Positions 31,450 to 53,935 of a stretch of 64,000 bases of DNA are shown here, piece after piece. A program made the translations under genes and the position numbers. The notes beneath the pieces are model-generated. The model did not search any database. It worked only from the letters and a program-made list of their open reading frames with translations, and was not told the origin of the DNA. The DNA comes from Ferrimonas kyonanensis DSM 18153 (GTDB lineage Bacteria > Pseudomonadota > Gammaproteobacteria > Enterobacterales > Shewanellaceae): the NCBI RefSeq assembly GCF_000425405.1, contig NZ_AUDJ01000001.1, positions 124,001 to 188,000 of the forward strand, given 5' to 3'. Each line of letters opens with the position of its first letter. Position 1 is the stretch's first letter.

Positions 31450-32820
31450 TCAGATGACGCGAGAGAACTGCTGCTGGCGAGCTTTGTCGCGCAGGTAGCG
31501 ATCGAAACACATGCAGATGTTGCGGATCAGCAACCGGCCCTGGCCGGTGACTTCGATGCTGGTGTCGGTCAGGCGCACCAGGTCGTCTTCGATGAACGGC
31601 TTCAGCAGTTTTTCATCTTCGGCGAAGTACTCGTTGAAGTTGATGTCCCACTGGGCTTCGATGGCCGACTTGTCCAGTTTGAAGTGACAGATCAGCTGCT
31701 TGATCACTTCGCGGCGGATGAAATCGTCGGTCTCCAGGCCACAGCCTTTGATCATGGCGTGCTCATGGGCATCCATGGATTCATAGTAGGCTTTCAGGTC
31801 CACGGCGTTCTGGGCGTAGGCCTTACCGATGTTGGAGATGGCCGAGGCGCCCAGACCCAGCAGGTCGGCATCCGGTTGGGTGGTGTAGCCCTGGAAATTA
31901 CGGTGCAGTTGACCTTCGTTCTGCAGGCGAGACAGCTCATCGTCAGGCTTGGCAAAGTGGTCCATGCCGATGAACTGGTAACCATAGCCCATCAGGGTGT
32001 TGATGCTGTTTTCCAGAATCTTCAGTTTCTGAGGTGCGGTTGGCAGATCCTCATCCTTAATCTTACGCTGGGCGGCAAAACGATGCGGCAGGTGGGCGTA
32101 GTTGAAGACACTGAGTCGGTCCGGATCCAGATCCTTCACGCGCTCCAGCGTCTTGGCAAAGCTCTCCGGAGTCTGGAATGGTAGGCCGTAGATCAGATCG
32201 ATGTTGGTGGACTCAAAGCCCAGTTCACGGGCGTGGCTGATCAGATCAAAGATGAACTGCTCGTCCTGTTCACGGTTGACCGCTTGCTGCACCTGCTTGT
32301 TGAAGTCCTGTACCCCAACAGAGATGCGGTTAAAGCCCACCTCTTTGAGTACGTCCAGAGTTTCCAGTTCGATCTCGCGAGGGTCCACTTCGATGGCGAA
32401 TTCACCCTCGTCGGCGAAATTGAATTTGGACTTCAGCAGCGCGGTCAGGCGACGGATCTGTTCGTGAGTCAGGTAGGTCGGGGTGCCGCCGCCCCAGTGC
32501 ATCTGGGTAACGGTGTAGCCTTTGAACAACTCGGCCCGGGCGTTGATTTCACGCTCCAGGTACTCGAGGTACTGCTCCGCCTTGTGGGCGTGGCGAGTGA
32601 TGATCTTGTTGCAGCCGCAGTAGTAGCACAGTTTGTGGCAAAACGGCACATGGATGTAGAGCGACAGGTTGCTCTTGTCCGACGTGGCGATGGCTTCTCG
32701 CAGGTTCTGGTCGGTGTACCCTTCGTGGAACTCAATGGCGGTCGGGTAAGACGTGTATCGCGGGCCACTGTAGTTATATTTTTCGATTAGGGCCTGGTTC
32801 CAGCTGATTTTGTCCTGCAC
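31450..32820 (-). CDS. hemN: Oxygen-independent coproporphyrinogen III oxidase
   Basis: HemN is a radical SAM enzyme that decarboxylates coproporphyrinogen III in anaerobic haem synthesis. The cluster motif HVPFCHKLCYYCGC and the GGGTPTYL segment are present. The frame is open to 32877 (GTG). I choose the GTG at 32820, because it has AGGAG 9 nt upstream, aligns with the E. coli start, and gives 456 aa against 457 in E. coli. The yihI-hemN neighbourhood is conserved with E. coli. It is distinct from the HemN-like protein at 57630-58964. Confidence 0.93.
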   Translation of the reverse strand: MQDKISWNQALIEKYNYSGPRYTSYPTAIEFHEGYTDQNLREAIATSDKSNLSLYIHVPFCHKLCYYCGCNKIITRHAHKAEQYLEYLEREINARAELFKGYTVTQMHWGGGTPTYLTHEQIRRLTALLKSKFNFADEGEFAIEVDPREIELETLDVLKEVGFNRISVGVQDFNKQVQQAVNREQDEQFIFDLISHARELGFESTNIDLIYGLPFQTPESFAKTLERVKDLDPDRLSVFNYAHLPHRFAAQRKIKDEDLPTAPQKLKILENSINTLMGYGYQFIGMDHFAKPDDELSRLQNEGQLHRNFQGYTTQPDADLLGLGASAISNIGKAYAQNAVDLKAYYESMDAHEHAMIKGCGLETDDFIRREVIKQLICHFKLDKSAIEAQWDINFNEYFAEDEKLLKPFIEDDLVRLTDTSIEVTGQGRLLIRNICMCFDRYLRDKARQQQFSRVI

Positions 32821-33339
32821 TGCAATCTTCTCCTGCGGTGGTAGAGTTAGGGCCTTTGCTGCGTGAACCGTCGTCACTGGCCGGTCTGTTTGCGTTCCAT
32901 CGGCGGTGACGGCGGGCTAGGTTTCACACCCAAGGTATGTGCATTATGCACACTTTGTAGCAGCTTGCCTTTGATCCGTGACCCAAATTCAAGGATGTTG
33001 GGAAACGAAAGCTACCCATCTTTATGGTGTTGTGATGGGCGGATCAGCAAAGGTAAGCACATAATGAAAACAACAATGGCCCGGATTGGTTCCCTGCCTC
33101 TGGCCGGGAACGTGACCGCTGCCACACAGTTTTATGCCACAGTCCTGATTTAGCAAACTCTGATAAGCCTAAGTCAAAGCTGACCAAAGTGGTAGAGACG
33201 CCGCTCATTCTCGCTCTCCTTCCGTGGCGACCACTCTGGCCTGTTGGGGCGCAGGAGGCAATCAAGAGAGCGTTGGCCCCGAGCGAGGCCGAGAAAGGCT
33301 GGCTCCCCCCTAATCCTGGGGGAGCCATGGGGACGGCGA
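32821..33339. other. Intergenic region between hemN and yihI
   Basis: No convincing gene lies in these ~520 bp. It holds the hemN promoter region, a perfect 7-1-7 palindrome at 32938-32952, and a GC-rich hairpin (GGCTCCCCC/GGGGGAGCC, 33301-33327) beyond the yihI stop that lacks a T-run. Two weak open frames occur: a 29-codon one at 33064-33153 on the plus strand and a 54-codon one at 33044-33208 on the minus strand that follows AAGGAG. Neither resembles a known protein. Confidence 0.5.
32938..32952. promoter_or_regulatory. Perfect palindrome overlapping a -10-like hexamer upstream of hemN
   Basis: The minus strand reads TGTGCATAATGCACA, a perfect 7-1-7 inverted repeat containing CATAAT, 118 bp upstream of the hemN start. 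A repressor bound here could block hemN transcription. The binding protein is not identified. Confidence 0.45.
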
Positions 33340-33870
33340 TCAGTCTTTGTACTGGTCCAGCAGGTCGCTGCCAGCTTCAAATTGATCCATCAGGGCCTCT
33401 TCGCTGTTCGGTCCCTGGTCGACTTCAATGCCCAACTGTTTCATCAACGCTTCGATGCGATCCAGTTTGCCGTCCAGCCATTGCTGATCGTCCTGGCTCA
33501 GGGTCTCGCCCTGTTCCATGCGATCCAGCAGCGCCAGCAGACGTGGGTTACTCTCCAGCTGCTCCAGTTGATGCTCCGGAGACGGTTTGGGCCGCAGCGA
33601 ATCCGGTTGTTGTGGTTTCGCCGCCTTGGTCACTGGCTTCGGCTCAGGGGCGACCAGAGAGATGGGGGTCTTGCTGCCCAGGCGCGGGTCTTTGGTTACC
33701 TTAGGCTTATTGGCCTGCGGCTTCTGCTTGCTGGCTTCATTCTGACGAGAGCCGGCAGATTTGCCCTTACTGGACTTGCGCTTGCCCTCGACGCCCGAAC
33801 CTTTCTCGGTGCGTGGTTGCAGTCGTGGACCATTTACATTGGATTTTCGGGATTTCTTTTGTCGCGTCAT
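33340..33870 (-). CDS. yihI: YihI, Der GTPase-activating protein
   Basis: YihI stimulates the GTPase Der and so modulates late 50S ribosome assembly. The 176-aa protein has the expected design: a lysine-rich, disordered N-terminal half (MTRQKKSRKSN onward) and an acidic helical C-terminal part with LLALLDRMEQGETLSQDDQ and WLDGKLDRIEALM. Length is close to E. coli YihI (169). It is part of the conserved polA-hemN region and lies between hemN and the csrC-type RNA, as in E. coli, with one methyltransferase gene added. Confidence 0.92.
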   Translation of the reverse strand: MTRQKKSRKSNVNGPRLQPRTEKGSGVEGKRKSSKGKSAGSRQNEASKQKPQANKPKVTKDPRLGSKTPISLVAPEPKPVTKAAKPQQPDSLRPKPSPEHQLEQLESNPRLLALLDRMEQGETLSQDDQQWLDGKLDRIEALMKQLGIEVDQGPNSEEALMDQFEAGSDLLDQYKD

Positions 33871-33908: not shown

Positions 33909-34544
33909 TTATGCCGGTTTTTGCAGCAAGATAACGTCATTGCCGATAAATTCTATCTGCAGGTTGTCCTGTTCTGCCAGATAACGGAAGGTCAGGCGGC
34001 TGAAAAAGCTGACGTGAGTGGGGTCGTTCTTGTAGTGCCAACTGGCAAAGGCATCCGCATCTCGAACCAGTTTGGTCATGATGCCCAGAGTGCCTCCGGG
34101 TTTCACCAGGCTCAGCAGCAGTTGCCACTCTCGGCCGGGACGGTAGAAGTGTTCGATGGCTTCGGTGCAGGTGACAAAATCGTACTGCCGTCGCAGCGGA
34201 GCGCGATCGGGAAAAAAGTACGGGTCGTACACCGCCATCGGGTGGCCTGCTTCTTCGAACATCAACGACAGCGTCGGCCCGGGGCCACAACCAAAATCCA
34301 GCCCGTGGCTGGCAGGCGTCATCCGCTGTGCTACCGGCGCCGCCAGGCGGTTGAGGAAACGGCGGTAACCCGGGTCCTGCGGCGTATTCTGGTGTTGATC
34401 GTATTGGTGCTTTTCGGCATTGGGAGGCAGTAGCGAGGCAGGATCGGCAAACACCAGATGACAGCGTTGACACTGAAAGTAATGGCGTTTCTTGTCTTGG
34501 TGGTAATGCTGGGTGTCACTGAAGTGGCAAAGCGGACAAGGCAT
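33909..34544 (-). CDS. Class I SAM-dependent methyltransferase with N-terminal zinc ribbon
   Basis: This 211-aa protein begins with a CPLC...CQRC zinc-ribbon (residues 3-29), followed by a Rossmann methyltransferase domain with LDFGCGPG at about residue 82-89 and acidic CTEAIEHFYRP. The pairing of zinc ribbon and methyltransferase is found in several bacterial families, with unknown substrates. It sits 38 bp upstream of yihI and could be co-transcribed with it. A TATACT -10-like hexamer lies at 34573-34578 on the minus strand. Confidence 0.78.
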   Translation of the reverse strand: MPCPLCHFSDTQHYHQDKKRHYFQCQRCHLVFADPASLLPPNAEKHQYDQHQNTPQDPGYRRFLNRLAAPVAQRMTPASHGLDFGCGPGPTLSLMFEEAGHPMAVYDPYFFPDRAPLRRQYDFVTCTEAIEHFYRPGREWQLLLSLVKPGGTLGIMTKLVRDADAFASWHYKNDPTHVSFFSRLTFRYLAEQDNLQIEFIGNDVILLQKPA

Positions 34545-34621: not shown

Positions 34622-34657
34622 AAATAAAAAAGGCAACAGAGTCCTCTCTGTTGCCTT
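34622..34657 (-). terminator. Terminator of the CsrB/CsrC-type RNA, with AGGA loop
   Basis: In RNA sense, AAGGCAACAGAG and CUCUGUUGCCUU form a perfect 12-bp stem whose 4-nt loop is exactly AGGA, followed by a U-run. E. coli CsrC ends with a very similar hairpin (GGCGACAGA...UCUGUCGCC). Confidence 0.93.
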
Positions 34658-35028
34658 GAAGCAGGGTGTCTGTTGACACTCTCTCATTCGGGTATTCAGG
34701 TGTTCCTTACCTGCGATGTGACTATCCCGGTCTAGGTCCGTCTTCTTTTTACTGCTTCCGTGCGGCTTTTTTAGTTGTTGGTCATTCCTGACGCTTTATT
34801 GGTCTTCCTGAGGTCATCCTTAACAATTATAAATGCCGCCTTCCTGACGACAAACATCTTCCTGATGCGAGGTAACCATCCTTGTAAACCCTAAAGGCTT
34901 ATCCGTTTACTCAGGTTCTCCGACCTGTCTCGTCCCAGAGAGTTTCCGTTCTTTCACCCTGTCCGTCGGGTGCTTTCCCATTTTTTTACAACCAACGTCC
35001 TGTTGGTTGAGGTCCTCTCCTTTGGATG
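34625..35028 (-). ncRNA. csrC: CsrB/CsrC-type CsrA-sequestering RNA, at the csrC locus
   Basis: The minus strand carries about 20 GGA motifs in ~400 nt, at least 11 as AGGA, often as UCAGGAAG, AAGGAUG or ACAGGACG. Many sit in hairpin loops: 34989-35009 is an 8-bp stem with loop AGGAC, 34857-34868 has loop AGGAA, and the terminator loop is AGGA. This is the hallmark of RNAs that titrate CsrA. The start (~35028) is inferred from a -10-like TAAAGT at 35035-35040 and a -35-like TTGCGA at 35057-35062, spaced 16 bp. No protein frame is present. In E. coli, csrC lies between engB (yihA) and yihI; the same flanks occur here, with cytochrome c4 and a methyltransferase gene inserted. Confidence 0.88.
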
Positions 35029-35034
35029 CCCCAT

Positions 35035-35062
35035 ACTTTACGGAGTTTGAGCTGGATCGCAA
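35035..35062 (-). promoter_or_regulatory. Predicted promoter of the CsrB/C-type RNA
   Basis: -35 TTGCGA (35057-35062), 16-bp spacer, -10 TAAAGT (35035-35040), reading leftward. A TGTAAG half-site at 35190-35195, about 160 bp upstream, resembles half of the GacA/UvrY box TGTAAGN6CTTACA; the second half is poor. BarA-UvrY control would be expected for such an RNA. Confidence 0.5.
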
Positions 35063-35256
35063 CTTTTTTTTGCCGAAGTGTTATGACCGCTCGTGATTGT
35101 TAACAAAGCAAAACACTGTTTTTTCTTAAGAGGGCCACGATCTTGCAGGTAATTATTCGACATTTTAGGGGGTGCGCAATGGCGAATGTCTTACAAGCAG
35201 TGGGGCAAAAAGCGCGATGTTCTGACTGTGACCTGGGTCCGAAATGGTCAGATGTT

Positions 35257-35283
35257 AAAAAGGCGAGCCTCGGCTCGCCTTGA
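35257..35283 (-). terminator. Terminator after the cytochrome c4 gene
   Basis: AAGGCGAGC and GCTCGCCTT pair around CTCG, followed on the minus strand by a T-run, 45 bp after the stop codon. It separates the cytochrome from the small-RNA promoter. Confidence 0.9.
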
Positions 35284-35325: not shown

Positions 35326-35955
35326 TTACTTAAGGCTGGAAACGTACTGCGACAGCAGCGCGATGTCCTCATCCTTCAGGTTTTTAGCGACACCGGACAT
35401 CATGCCATTGAGATCATTATGGCGAACGCCGCTGCGGAATTTTTCCAGCTGGGCCTTGATGTAATCCGGGTGTTGGCCTGCCAGGCTCGGGTAACCGGCC
35501 AGGTTCATGCCTTCGCCGTTGGGGCCATGGCAGGCGGCACAGGCGGTGATCTGACGACTGGCATCGCCGGCCATGTACAGCTTTTTGCCCGCTGAGGCGG
35601 TTTGAGCATCGATGCTGACACCGGCAGTGCTGGTCTGCGAGGCATAAAATGCCGCTACGTCCGCCATCTGCTCTTCGGTCAGTGTCATGGCCATGCCGCT
35701 CATGATCGGATCATGACGCCCCTCTTTGCCCCCGGTCATGGCAGCTTGCTTCAGTTCTTGCAACTGCTTGACCAGATAGCCTTGGTGCTGACCGGCCACC
35801 TTGGGGTAGAGGCTGATCAGACTGTTGCCATCCATGCCGTGGCAGGCGATACAAGTGGTTGAGGCGACTTGCTGGCCTTTGGTGGCGTCTCCCTGGGCCT
35901 GAACAGTACCGCTGAAGACGGCGAGCACAGAAAGTGTTAGTGCTAATTTTTTCAT
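35326..35955 (-). CDS. Dihaem cytochrome c4
   Basis: This 209-aa periplasmic electron carrier passes electrons to terminal oxidases. A signal peptide (MKKLALTLSVLAVFSGTVQA) precedes two cytochrome c domains with haem motifs CIACH and CAACH. Conserved Met ligands are in the IMSGMAM and MMSGVA segments. The frame is open to 36009, but the ATG at 35955 starts the signal peptide. Two homologous halves and the length fit the c4 family well. It is divergent from engB. Confidence 0.92.
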   Translation of the reverse strand: MKKLALTLSVLAVFSGTVQAQGDATKGQQVASTTCIACHGMDGNSLISLYPKVAGQHQGYLVKQLQELKQAAMTGGKEGRHDPIMSGMAMTLTEEQMADVAAFYASQTSTAGVSIDAQTASAGKKLYMAGDASRQITACAACHGPNGEGMNLAGYPSLAGQHPDYIKAQLEKFRSGVRHNDLNGMMSGVAKNLKDEDIALLSQYVSSLK

Positions 35956-36126
35956 TGTGTTCCAACTTATATTTGCGTGGCTCGTTCTTTCCCTGTCCAG
36001 CCTCGCCACGTGATAGAATGATGGAGAGGCTCGCGGTTTGTATTTTACACTAATTTGTCGATAGATCTAAAAAATCGGCACTTTGTGACCGCGAGCAAGT
36101 TTTTAACCCGCTTGTGGAGAGTGTAC

Positions 36127-36744
36127 GTGACCGACACCGCCATCGATTTTCGTCGCGCTAAGTATATGCTCAGCGCCCCCGATATTAGTTTTTTGCCGCC
36201 GGATACCGGTGTCGAGGTGGCATTTGCCGGCCGCTCCAATGCGGGCAAGTCCAGTGCCCTGAATACCATGACCGACCAACGGGGATTGGCGAAGACCTCC
36301 AAAACCCCGGGTCGTACCCAGATGATCAACCTGTTTGAACTGGCAGAAGATCGCCGCTTGGTGGATCTGCCGGGTTACGGTTTTGCCCAGGTGCCGCTGG
36401 AGATGAAGAAGAAGTGGCAACATGCGCTGGCCGAGTATCTTGAGAAGCGAAACTGTCTGAAAGGGCTGGTGGTGCTGATGGATTGTCGGCATCCCCTCAA
36501 GGATCTGGATGTCAATATGATCCGCTGGGGCGTGGCGGCGGAGTTGCCGGTGCTGGTGTTACTGACCAAGGCCGATAAGTTGAAGCAGGCGGTCAAGCAG
36601 AAGACCTTGCGGGATGTGAAAGCCAGTCTGGAGGCGATGGACCTGGATGGTGACATCAAGGTGCAGTTGTTCTCTTCCCTGAAGGGAACCGGGCGCACCG
36701 AGGCCATTAAAACGGTCACCGCCTGGTTGGAACAGCCGCTGTAA
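36127..36744 (+). CDS. engB: Ribosome biogenesis GTPase EngB (YihA/YsxC)
   Basis: EngB is an essential GTPase for 50S subunit assembly. G1 is GRSNAGKSS, the G2/switch I region is [10 protein letters not shown]3 is DLPGYG, and G4 is TKAD. The frame is open to 36055, but the GTG at 36127 has GGAGAG upstream and gives 205 aa, close to the 210 of E. coli. It faces Spot 42 and polA as in E. coli. Confidence 0.93.
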
Positions 36745-36917: not shown

Positions 36918-37030
36918 TCATAGCCATAATACTCCGGTCTGGACCAAACTTAAAGCATTTGCTCTATTTCAATTGTGCAACGAATTGGTAACTGAAGTTC
37001 GAACCGGATGAAAATTTCAGAAGCCGAAAA

Positions 37031-37140
37031 GAAAAAACCCCGGTGACCGAAGTCACCGGGGCGCCATAAAAATTTGGCTGATCACGCGAAGTGATCGAAT
37101 AAGGTTTGTTAAGATAGAACATCTTACCTCTGTACCCTAC
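37031..37140 (-). ncRNA. spf: Spot 42 small RNA
   Basis: The minus strand from 37140 begins GTAGGGTACAGAGGTAAGAT and continues GTTCTATCTT, nearly identical to the 5' end of E. coli Spot 42. It ends in a terminator (CCCCGGTGAC/GTCACCGGGG around TTCG, then T6) after TGGCG, giving about 110 nt against 109 in E. coli. It lies between polA and engB in the same orientation as polA, the same synteny as E. coli. Spot 42 works with Hfq to repress carbon-uptake and redox genes and is itself repressed by CRP-cAMP. Confidence 0.95.
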
Positions 37141-37147
37141 GAGCGAA

Positions 37148-37223
37148 AGCATAGCCAACCAGTTTCGCCAGTAAAAGATAAATTGGATTCTGGAGCAATG
37201 TTTTGTGATCTCGATCGATAAAA
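37148..37223 (-). promoter_or_regulatory. spf promoter and candidate CRP site
   Basis: -10 TATGCT (37148-37153) lies 7 bp before the RNA start; -35-like TTTTAC is at about 37171-37176. A CRP-like element with a strong TTTTGTGATC half and a weak second half (GATCGATAAAA) spans 37201-37223, centred about 72 bp upstream. Confidence 0.6.
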
Positions 37224-52623: not shown

Positions 52624-53604
52624 TTAGCCGCCTATCGACGCCAGATGCTGGGTGACGCCGGTCAGGCCCTGATGCAACTGGTGAGTCTCGGTTTTCTGTT
52701 TCAGCTGTTGGTGCAGGCGAGCGACCAGCGCCGCCTGATGATCATCGTGCCCCAGCAGATCCCGCAGTTCCACGCCACATTCGGTGAACAGACACAGGTG
52801 CAGCTTGCCGATGGCCGAAACCCGCAAGCGGTTGCAGGTGGCACAGAAATCTTTGGCGTAAGGCATGATCAGGCCGATGCGACCCTGGTAATCTGGGTGG
52901 CTGAAGTTCTGCGCCGGGCCGTCAACCGGCCCCCGAGGATCTTCAGTCCAGCCCTGGGCCAGCAGTTGCTGCTTGATCACCATGCCGGAGACGTGGTGAC
53001 GCTGGAAATACTCCTGACCCAGTCCGGTCTCCATCAACTCGATAAAGCGGATATCCACCGGGCGGTGGCGGATGTACTCCAGAAAGTTTGGCAGCTGATG
53101 AGCGTTGAGTTCGTTCAGCAGCACCACGTTGATCTTGACCTTGTGGTAGTCGGCGTCCAGCGCCGCCTCGATGCCGTCGAGCACTTTTTGCTGGCGGCCG
53201 TCGCCGGTGATCTGGCGAAACAGCTTTTCATCCAGGCTGTCGAGGGAGACGTTAATCTGGCTCAGTCCCAGTTGACGCCAGCGATGGGCGTTTTCCGGCA
53301 GGCGATAGCCGTTGGTGGTGGTGGCCACGGTGTCGATGCCTGGGGTATTGGCTGCGAGCTCAATGACTTGATCGAAGTCCTTGCGCAGGGTGGGTTCCCC
53401 GCCGGTGATTCGAATCTTGCGGGTGCCGACAGTGGCGAACGCCCGGATAACCCGGCCGACTTCGTCCACAGACAAAAAACGGGATTTGCCACTGCGCTGA
53501 TAGCCATCGGGCAGGCAGTATTGGCACTTGAAGTTACAGGCGTCGGTAATGGAGAGACGCAGGTAATGAAATTCGCGACCATAGCGGTCTTGGAGTTCTG
53601 TCAT
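52624..53604 (-). CDS. moaA: GTP 3',8-cyclase
   Basis: MoaA is the radical SAM enzyme that starts Moco synthesis from GTP. The 326-aa protein has the N-terminal cluster motif CNFKCQYC, the GGEPTLR segment, a C-terminal cluster motif with CATCNRLRVS and a later Cys, and ends in SIGG, where the C-terminal Gly-Gly is needed for activity. It is the first gene of the operon. Its ribosome-binding site (AAAGGTG) lies inside the 3' end of the Moco riboswitch. Confidence 0.96.
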   Translation of the reverse strand: MTELQDRYGREFHYLRLSITDACNFKCQYCLPDGYQRSGKSRFLSVDEVGRVIRAFATVGTRKIRITGGEPTLRKDFDQVIELAANTPGIDTVATTTNGYRLPENAHRWRQLGLSQINVSLDSLDEKLFRQITGDGRQQKVLDGIEAALDADYHKVKINVVLLNELNAHQLPNFLEYIRHRPVDIRFIELMETGLGQEYFQRHHVSGMVIKQQLLAQGWTEDPRGPVDGPAQNFSHPDYQGRIGLIMPYAKDFCATCNRLRVSAIGKLHLCLFTECGVELRDLLGHDDHQAALVARLHQQLKQKTETHQLHQGLTGVTQHLASIGG

Positions 53605-53605
53605 G

Positions 53606-53712
53606 TGTCACCTTTCCAAACACGGGAGGTAGCGAGATTTCTCTGCGTTACCCTGGTGGCGGTATGCCACGGCTTGAAGACCATATATTCACTTAGGTCG
53701 GCCAAGCTCGGT
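53606..53712 (-). promoter_or_regulatory. Moco riboswitch upstream of moaA
   Basis: The minus strand leader contains, in order, GGCATACCGCC, AGGGTAACGC, and CTACCTCCCGTGTTTGG running into AAAGGTG, the conserved blocks of the Moco RNA motif. It ends about 2 bp before the moaA ATG, so it overlaps the ribosome-binding site and probably controls translation: high molybdenum cofactor would repress the operon. Confidence 0.9.
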
Positions 53713-53935
53713 TCACAACTTCCGCTAAGTTTAATCCATTCTGTTCAAGAACAACAACGTGGCTGGATCACAGAATTGACGCTGTTGTGAATTCTGTTTT
53801 GTCATAACGGCGAAAAAGCCGACAACTGGTAGGAACAGCTAACGGTGGCTTTTTAACCAAACGCGCGTTTAATTTTTGTCGTTATGCAGTAAGCTAGGGG
53901 CGTTAGGGAGATAAGAACGACAAAGGAATAACAAG
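53713..53935. other. Divergent promoter region between moaA and the ETF-QO gene
   Basis: No gene is seen here. It holds the start of the moaA leader transcript on the left and the ETF-QO promoter on the right, with the palindrome at 53859-53870. Confidence 0.5.
53859..53870. promoter_or_regulatory. PsrA-like palindrome upstream of ETF-QO
   Basis: AAACGCGCGTTT is a perfect 12-bp palindrome, preceded by C, giving CAAAC-N4-GTTT. This is close to the PsrA fatty-acid-regulator consensus (C/GAAAC-N2-4-GTTTG/C), and PsrA is known to control ETF genes in related bacteria. It lies 66 bp before the start. Confidence 0.5.

Follow-up and report, generated by a model that had tools for sequence, protein, structure and literature searches.

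The intergenic RNA of Ferrimonas kyonanensis DSM 18153 described here is, with a probability of about 0.9, the Ferrimonas csrC, that is, an independently transcribed non-coding sponge of some 400 nt for the regulator CsrA. The CsrB/CsrC class as such is known, and what is new is very likely a Ferrimonas member of it, by function a UvrY-activated CsrA sponge and by position the ortholog of csrC. The window, i.e. the whole stretch of 64,000 nt that was analysed, contains an array of GGA motifs, hairpins with GGA in their loops, a promoter-like element, a UvrY-type site, a terminator and the csrC gene order, and the genome holds the genes for CsrA, UvrY, BarA and CsrB. From these elements we infer transcription, dependence on UvrY, binding and sequestration of CsrA, and a descent shared with E. 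coli csrC. The first-pass annotation had taken the stretch for a CsrB/CsrC-type RNA at the csrC locus, and the GGA density, the hairpins, the gene order, the UvrY-type site and the terminator all argue for that reading.

The RNA, its signals and its neighbours

The predicted RNA of about 404 nt lies on the minus strand at 34626–35029, with the start set from the -10 box and the end from the terminator. It had been given as 34625–35062, a span which covers the inferred transcript (35029 down to 34626) but at 35062 takes in the promoter as well. Exactly 20 GGA motifs, 11 of them AGGA, were counted on the minus strand of 34625–35035, as the first-pass annotation had claimed. Both numbers are the maximum among all 411-nt segments on both strands of the 64 kb; the next best segments outside the region have 16 GGA and 6 AGGA, and the means are 5.6 and 1.1. 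The strand is rich in A and G (142 A and 113 G of 411), and 20 GGA were reached by 7 of 10,000 mononucleotide shuffles. No open reading frame of at least 60 aa with an ATG, GTG or TTG start overlaps the RNA in the list made for the window, in agreement with the claimed non-coding stretch of about 400 nt. Judged by its sequence, the RNA thus appears to be a separate non-coding unit with an intrinsic terminator, like other RNAs of the CsrB/CsrC class.

The gene order in E. coli is polA-spf-yihA(engB)-csrC-yihI-hemN, and in the window it is polA, a diverged Spot 42 RNA, engB, a cytochrome c gene, the RNA, a methyltransferase gene, yihI and hemN. The RNA is therefore found between engB/yihA and yihI, where a csrC ortholog should be. 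The flanking genes engB/yihA (36055–36744, plus strand, start codon as listed mechanically; TIGR03598, 234.9 bits), yihI (33340–33870, minus strand; NF003560, 144.3 bits) and hemN (31450–32877, minus strand; TIGR00538, 661.7 bits) were identified by family models, while polA was named from its sequence. The flanks had been described as those of csrC with two extra genes, and this is what we see. The extra genes encode a diheme cytochrome c (35326–35958, minus strand; PF00034 and PF13442), 97% identical to its Ferrimonas sediminum counterpart, and a methyltransferase (33909–34544, minus strand; PF13489). Spot 42 (spf), which lies between polA and engB at 37029–37150 on the minus strand, scores 62.0 bits and is below the Rfam gathering threshold of 80; the match is present in all 14 Ferrimonas genomes and exceeds the threshold in two of them. 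Elsewhere in the window, a molybdenum cofactor riboswitch (RF01055, 74.7 bits) was observed at 53593–53725 on the minus strand.

We propose a promoter at 35035–35062 on the minus strand, TTGCGA and TAAAGT with 16 nt in between, since it lines up with few changes among the 14 Ferrimonas genomes; it is absent from the output of a consensus sigma-70 scan. Further upstream, about 160 nt before the inferred RNA start, there is a putative UvrY site of the csrC type, TGTAAGACATTCGCCATT (35178–35195, minus strand), as would be expected for a csrC ortholog. The TGTAAG half-site noticed in the first reading was located at 35195–35190, within this candidate site. According to the excerpted text of an earlier study, the UvrY sites of E. 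coli csrC, TGTGAGACATTGCCGATA, and Salmonella csrC, TGTGAGACATTGACCATT, are both less symmetric than that of csrB, TGTGAGAGATCTCTTACA (PMC4682653). The Ferrimonas sites are of the csrC kind, for instance TGTAAGACATTGACCATT in the genomes G001 and G002, and the site at the CsrB of the present genome is of the csrB kind, GCGAGATCTCTTACA, so that the two paralogs here differ in their promoters as csrB and csrC do in E. coli. The csrC-type site starts 164–166 nt before the inferred RNA start in every one of the 14 Ferrimonas, and since this start was set from the -10 box, the figure really describes a constant distance between site and promoter. E. coli csrC fits the pattern written from the Ferrimonas sites at 16 of 17 positions, and none of 200 shuffles was as good.

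The intrinsic terminator of the RNA (34630–34657, minus strand) was found by the terminator scan as a stem of 12 pairs followed by a T-run, and 3 of 10 pairs are changed on both sides among the Ferrimonas sequences. The upstream cytochrome c gene has a terminator of its own between gene and RNA promoter, at 35257–35281 on the minus strand (the scan reports this stem on the plus strand). With terminators on either side, the RNA is separated from its neighbour genes. The first-pass annotation had described a terminator with an AGGA loop; the terminator is real, at 34657–34630, but the AGGA loop is shared with the nearest relative only, and a GGA in or touching the loop occurs in 4 of the 14 species. 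The likeness to the CsrC terminator that had also been claimed holds best in two other Ferrimonas, the E. coli csrC terminator AGGCGACAGAGTAATCTGTCGCCTTTTTT being 1 base off those of G006 and G001, whereas the window's own diverges more.

Folding and conservation within Ferrimonas

The RNA is present in all 14 Ferrimonas genomes, 368–404 nt long and with 16–23 GGA in each. GGA is about twice as frequent as expected from composition in each of the 14 species, and no species' RNA had its GGA count reached by more than 17 of 3000 shuffles. A DNA similarity search gave a match in 13 of 40 genomes, the genome's own included. Ferrimonas G001 has no such match, yet it carries the RNA downstream of its cytochrome gene.

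The window RNA folds more stably than its shuffles do, with z = -2.81 and none of 100 shuffles matching its stability. Of its 20 GGA, 12 leave two or three bases unpaired in the minimum-energy fold, and only 7 of the 20 are in hairpin loops. The earlier statement that many GGA are in hairpin loops is therefore a fair one, although it does not apply to all of them. The share of mostly unpaired GGA ranges from 6 of 16 (G002) to 15 of 21 over the 14 species. In every species, Gs within a GGA are paired less often than the remaining Gs, with an unpaired fraction of 0.48–0.62 as compared to 0.22–0.32. The many GGA and AGGA motifs, with a good part of them in hairpin loops or single strands, are what characterises the CsrB/CsrC class.

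RNAalifold applied to the 14 Ferrimonas sequences gave 41 pairs, of which 37 were counted; a four-pair helix joining the 5' end to the T-run of the terminator was left out. In the 37-pair structure 99.0% of the cells are paired, as compared to 93.2% for shuffled and 27.8–47.4% for slid alignments. Changes on both sides are seen in 14 of the 37 pairs, against 6.5 in shuffled and 0–3 in slid alignments, and none of 500 shuffles was as high, while further pair types were not above the shuffles (184 of 500). Because the structure comes from these same related sequences, none of these covariation figures is to be read as a probability.

Six hairpins of the structure, H1 to H6, carry a GGA in their loops; all are on the minus strand, and compensatory stem changes are found in four of them. 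H1 (34912–34927) has 4 of 5 pairs changed on both sides and its GGA in 12 of the 14 genomes; H2 (34855–34867, loop AGGAA) has 2 of 4 pairs changed and GGA in 14; H3 (34781–34792, loop AGGAAT) has 1 of 3 changed and GGA in 13; and H6 (34697–34713, loop AAGGAAC) has 2 of 5 changed and GGA in 14. H4 (34754–34763, loop ACGGAA), with a stem of two pairs, and H5 (34720–34732, loop CGGGATA), with a stem of three, both have their GGA in all 14 genomes; their stems are short and invariant, so that these hairpins are conserved while covariation says nothing about them. Near the 3' end there is also a hairpin H7 (34666–34679, minus strand), with a GTGTC/GACAC stem, which is kept in all 14 Ferrimonas with compensatory changes (2 of 5 pairs changed on both sides), yet has no GGA in its loop in any of them.

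Relatives outside the genus and competing explanations

The Rfam scan did not confirm the assignment. At the RNA, the CsrB model (RF00018) gives 21.9 bits where 71 are needed and the CsrC model (RF00084) gives 11.1 bits, from the terminator only, where 61 are needed; the RNA is accordingly filed outside both families as they are curated. Weak scores of the Hovlinc, eeev_FSE, sR28, EF3314_EF3315 and CrcZ models in the window were dropped as chance-level. The CsrC model exceeds its cut-off in none of 40 genomes and gives no match in the present genome at E <= 0.1. Full-length matches below the threshold, 22.4–32.7 bits, are found at this locus in 5 of the 14 Ferrimonas genomes (G003, G007, G013, G006 and G004), and likewise, with 20.7 bits each, in a further two genomes of the family; a part of these scores (20.7–32.7 bits) comes from the terminator. 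With its gathering threshold applied, Rfam recognises CsrC of E. coli, whereas 16 other loci yield no Csr RNA; one of them, Vibrio L071, lacks a copy also by our own model R1. Since they are silent in the 16 loci while E. coli CsrC is found, the Rfam models seem to be narrow.

Model R1, a covariance model of the 3' 195 positions in the 14 Ferrimonas sequences, was searched against 81 sources, with E-values that are rough. It matched 15 of 17 loci named Shewanella (87–122 bits), 2 of 2 of Parashewanella (84–87 bits), 12 of 12 of Pseudoalteromonas (36–48 bits) and 3 of 3 of Glaciecola (41–43 bits). One of the two Shewanella misses, L062, ends 358 nt after the cytochrome gene, and the other, L087, has no match. 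None of three Vibrio cytochrome loci was matched, and none of 18 more distant loci (L097–L110 and L112–L115) at E <= 0.01, three of them lying at 0.01–0.11. Nine of 16 further loci (L130–L145) were matched, two of these at just 21.5 and 25.0 bits; L130 and L132, which come from separate genomes of a single genus within the family of the window, gave no match. When genomes from the order were searched, 32 of 148 gave a single match at E <= 0.001, and 116 had none under filters that lose weak matches. Thirty of these 32 loci were examined and all 30 have yihI downstream, although the search is blind to gene order.

E. coli csrC scored 36.8 bits with R1, and neither the CsrB of the present genome nor E. 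coli csrB was found. We rejected the csrC match as evidence for homology of the RNA body, as its alignment is mostly terminator and the match is lost without it. Terminators alone score 13–20 bits, and a second model, R2, was therefore built without the terminator. R2 matched 15 of 16 Shewanella loci, both Parashewanella loci, all 12 of Pseudoalteromonas (E 3e-6 to 4e-4) and, weakly, all three of Glaciecola (E 0.003–0.011). It found none of five E. coli-like loci, i.e. no similarity between the RNA body and E. coli CsrC is detected when the terminator is left out. Among genomes from the order, 45 of 295 had one match each at E <= 0.01. Thirty of these loci were examined and 29 have yihI downstream, while the remaining one has engB and the cytochrome gene upstream and the methyltransferase gene downstream. 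A common descent of the RNA among the Shewanella relatives and several other families is thus supported by these comparisons. The descent it would share with E. coli csrC is drawn mainly from the gene order, the UvrY site, the GTAAAGT element and the terminator, and hardly from the RNA body.

The csrC-type UvrY site was called where 16 or 17 of the 17 pattern positions agreed (L177 was too short and was left out). It was found at 8 of 29 whole-genome loci, two of the eight being Ferrimonas, and at 5 of 16 named loci, four of Pseudoalteromonas and that of E. coli. None of the named Shewanella and Parashewanella loci tested, which include Shewanella sp. ANA-3 (L096) but not strain MR-1, reached this level; three Shewanella loci have 14 of 17 positions, which was equalled by 5 to 12 of 200 shuffles. 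The lack of a good csrC-type site in the Shewanella copies suggests that they have another regulator. It was also observed that the Shewanella loci L096, L061 and L065 have a long AAT-rich stretch before the RNA, about 50–550 nt downstream of the cytochrome gene, and that this stretch lies behind a TTGACA/TTTAAT-like promoter, itself preceded by a GTTTACGTTAACGTAAAC-like palindrome.

It is conceivable, though we consider it rather unlikely, that the RNA is made up of two modules, a fast-changing 5' half that merely adds CsrA sites and a 3' module, H3 to H7, that has a second job. The 3' module, the GGA-free H7 included, would be the part that is clearly preserved in Shewanella and Parashewanella and to some extent in Pseudoalteromonas. 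In Shewanella, a different 5' half and promoter would have replaced the original ones, and the UvrY site would have become weak or disappeared. The second job could lie in RNase E/CsrD turnover, as an entry or a protection site, in the binding of another protein, or in base pairing. If this doubtful division were true, the sponge module of Shewanella would answer to a different regulator.

Apart from the csrC reading, a CsrA sponge could have originated here independently of E. coli csrC, or the RNA could be a CsrB copy that was displaced, and the shared position would then be a coincidence. The failure of R2 to find any E. coli-like locus would fit a separate origin, and so would the best Rfam score in the window being that of CsrB and not of CsrC. 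We nevertheless regard this as improbable, since the locus has the gene order, the GTAAAGT element and the UvrY subtype of E. coli csrC as well as a similar terminator, and relatives are found at the same place in other families. The full-length CsrC-model matches below the threshold in five Ferrimonas also speak somewhat against it, and a further point against it is that R1 finds neither the genome's own CsrB nor E. coli csrB.

A still smaller chance is left for a structured leader, a UTR remnant or another small RNA, for example a sponge of the Hfq/Crc type, in which the GGA motifs would come from purine richness. The A/G-rich strand and the weak CrcZ score (10.7 bits) could be taken in this way. 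Against it speak GGA at about twice the number expected from composition in all 14 species, loops that keep GGA while their stems change, and the terminators that set the RNA apart from its neighbours on both sides. That the stretch is a chance purine-rich intergenic sequence without any product can practically be dismissed, as promoter, site spacing, hairpins and terminator are kept in all 14 species and relatives occupy the same locus in several families.

Csr components and known systems

The host genome (4.93 Mb in 40 contigs) has a csrA gene and a UvrY that shares 70% identity with the E. coli protein. A TGA flagged in the UvrY match is the final stop of the protein and the frame is open throughout; it is followed by a uvrC-like frame, named from its sequence, as in E. 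coli. BarA is 46% identical to the E. coli protein over its length. In the csrC reading, BarA would phosphorylate UvrY, and phosphorylated UvrY would bind the site about 160 nt upstream and switch on the csrC gene. The some 20 GGA motifs, in hairpin loops or single strands, may then be offered to CsrA dimers, and the RNA would sequester CsrA from mRNA leaders alongside the separate CsrB.

This CsrB is found at C6:114472–114768 and scores 83.2 bits with RF00018, above the Rfam threshold, as compared to 21.9 for the RNA described here. CsrB RNAs have GGA-rich hairpins and a UvrY-type site upstream and act as CsrA sponges, and in all this the proposed csrC resembles them. It differs from the CsrB of its own genome by lying at another locus, by the type of UvrY site (csrB type at CsrB) and by R1 missing CsrB. 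With the proposed csrC, Ferrimonas would have a second Csr RNA beside CsrB. With E. coli CsrC (RF00084) it has in common the engB-yihI locus, many GGA, the csrC type of UvrY site upstream, an element directly before the RNA (GTAAAGTA in E. coli) and the terminator (AAGGCGACAGAGTAATCTGTCGCCTT in E. coli). It differs in length, about 404 nt as compared to 246 nt, in the two extra genes of its neighbourhood, and in the RNA body, which the terminator-free model does not connect.

An RNA with the shared 3' module at the engB-yihI locus of Shewanella, Parashewanella, Pseudoalteromonas, Glaciecola and further genomes suggests that csrC is not just an enteric RNA, and at these loci Rfam calls no Csr RNA at its own thresholds. 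The age and the re-wiring of paired Csr RNAs thereby become directly testable. We found no publication that combines Ferrimonas and CsrB, and none among those listed by title and start of abstract describes a csrC locus between engB and yihI outside the enterics; most subscription journals lie outside this search.

For Shewanella, the locus suggests a concrete csrC candidate. The available sections of a study on S. oneidensis describe CsrB1 and CsrB2, which belong to the Csr system and depend on UvrY, as the proposed csrC would, but lie at another locus, SO_1615-SO_1617 (PMC3171408). A csrC predicted between mutM and SO_4727 was transcribed, UvrY-independent and had four motifs, and in those sections the engB locus is not mentioned (PMC3171408). 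A text from 2024, as excerpted, credits S. oneidensis with at least two such RNAs, CsrB1 and CsrB2 (PMC11045786). In the portion at hand of a survey of S. piezotolerans, the name CsrC is given to an RNA that is attributed to a gene of fatty-acid synthesis (PMC5471319).

In Pseudoalteromonas fuliginea KMM 216, the locus (L079, 4916–5216) was seen to contain a Csr-type RNA with 9 GGA (boundaries set by eye), AAT-rich spacers and a putative csrC-type UvrY site. Pf3 of P. fuliginea likewise has 9 GGA, and its zebrafish matches are TAA/AAT-rich repeats; it bound CsrA in a gel shift and raised glycogen in E. coli, and its matches outside the genus were partial, mostly eukaryotic, and in Thalassotalea (all from the excerpts of PMC11882849). 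From the GGA count and the AAT-rich sequence, the copy at this locus is probably Pf3 itself. In that case a relative of the Ferrimonas RNA would already have been shown to bind CsrA, and a probable ancestry can be offered for Pf3, for which the excerpted account has no more than partial matches outside Pseudoalteromonas.

How many Csr RNAs a genome has seems to differ greatly across the order. Three of its genomes (G024, G031 and G034) were observed to have four to six matches each to the CsrB model at E <= 0.1, some of them overlapping and several clustered.
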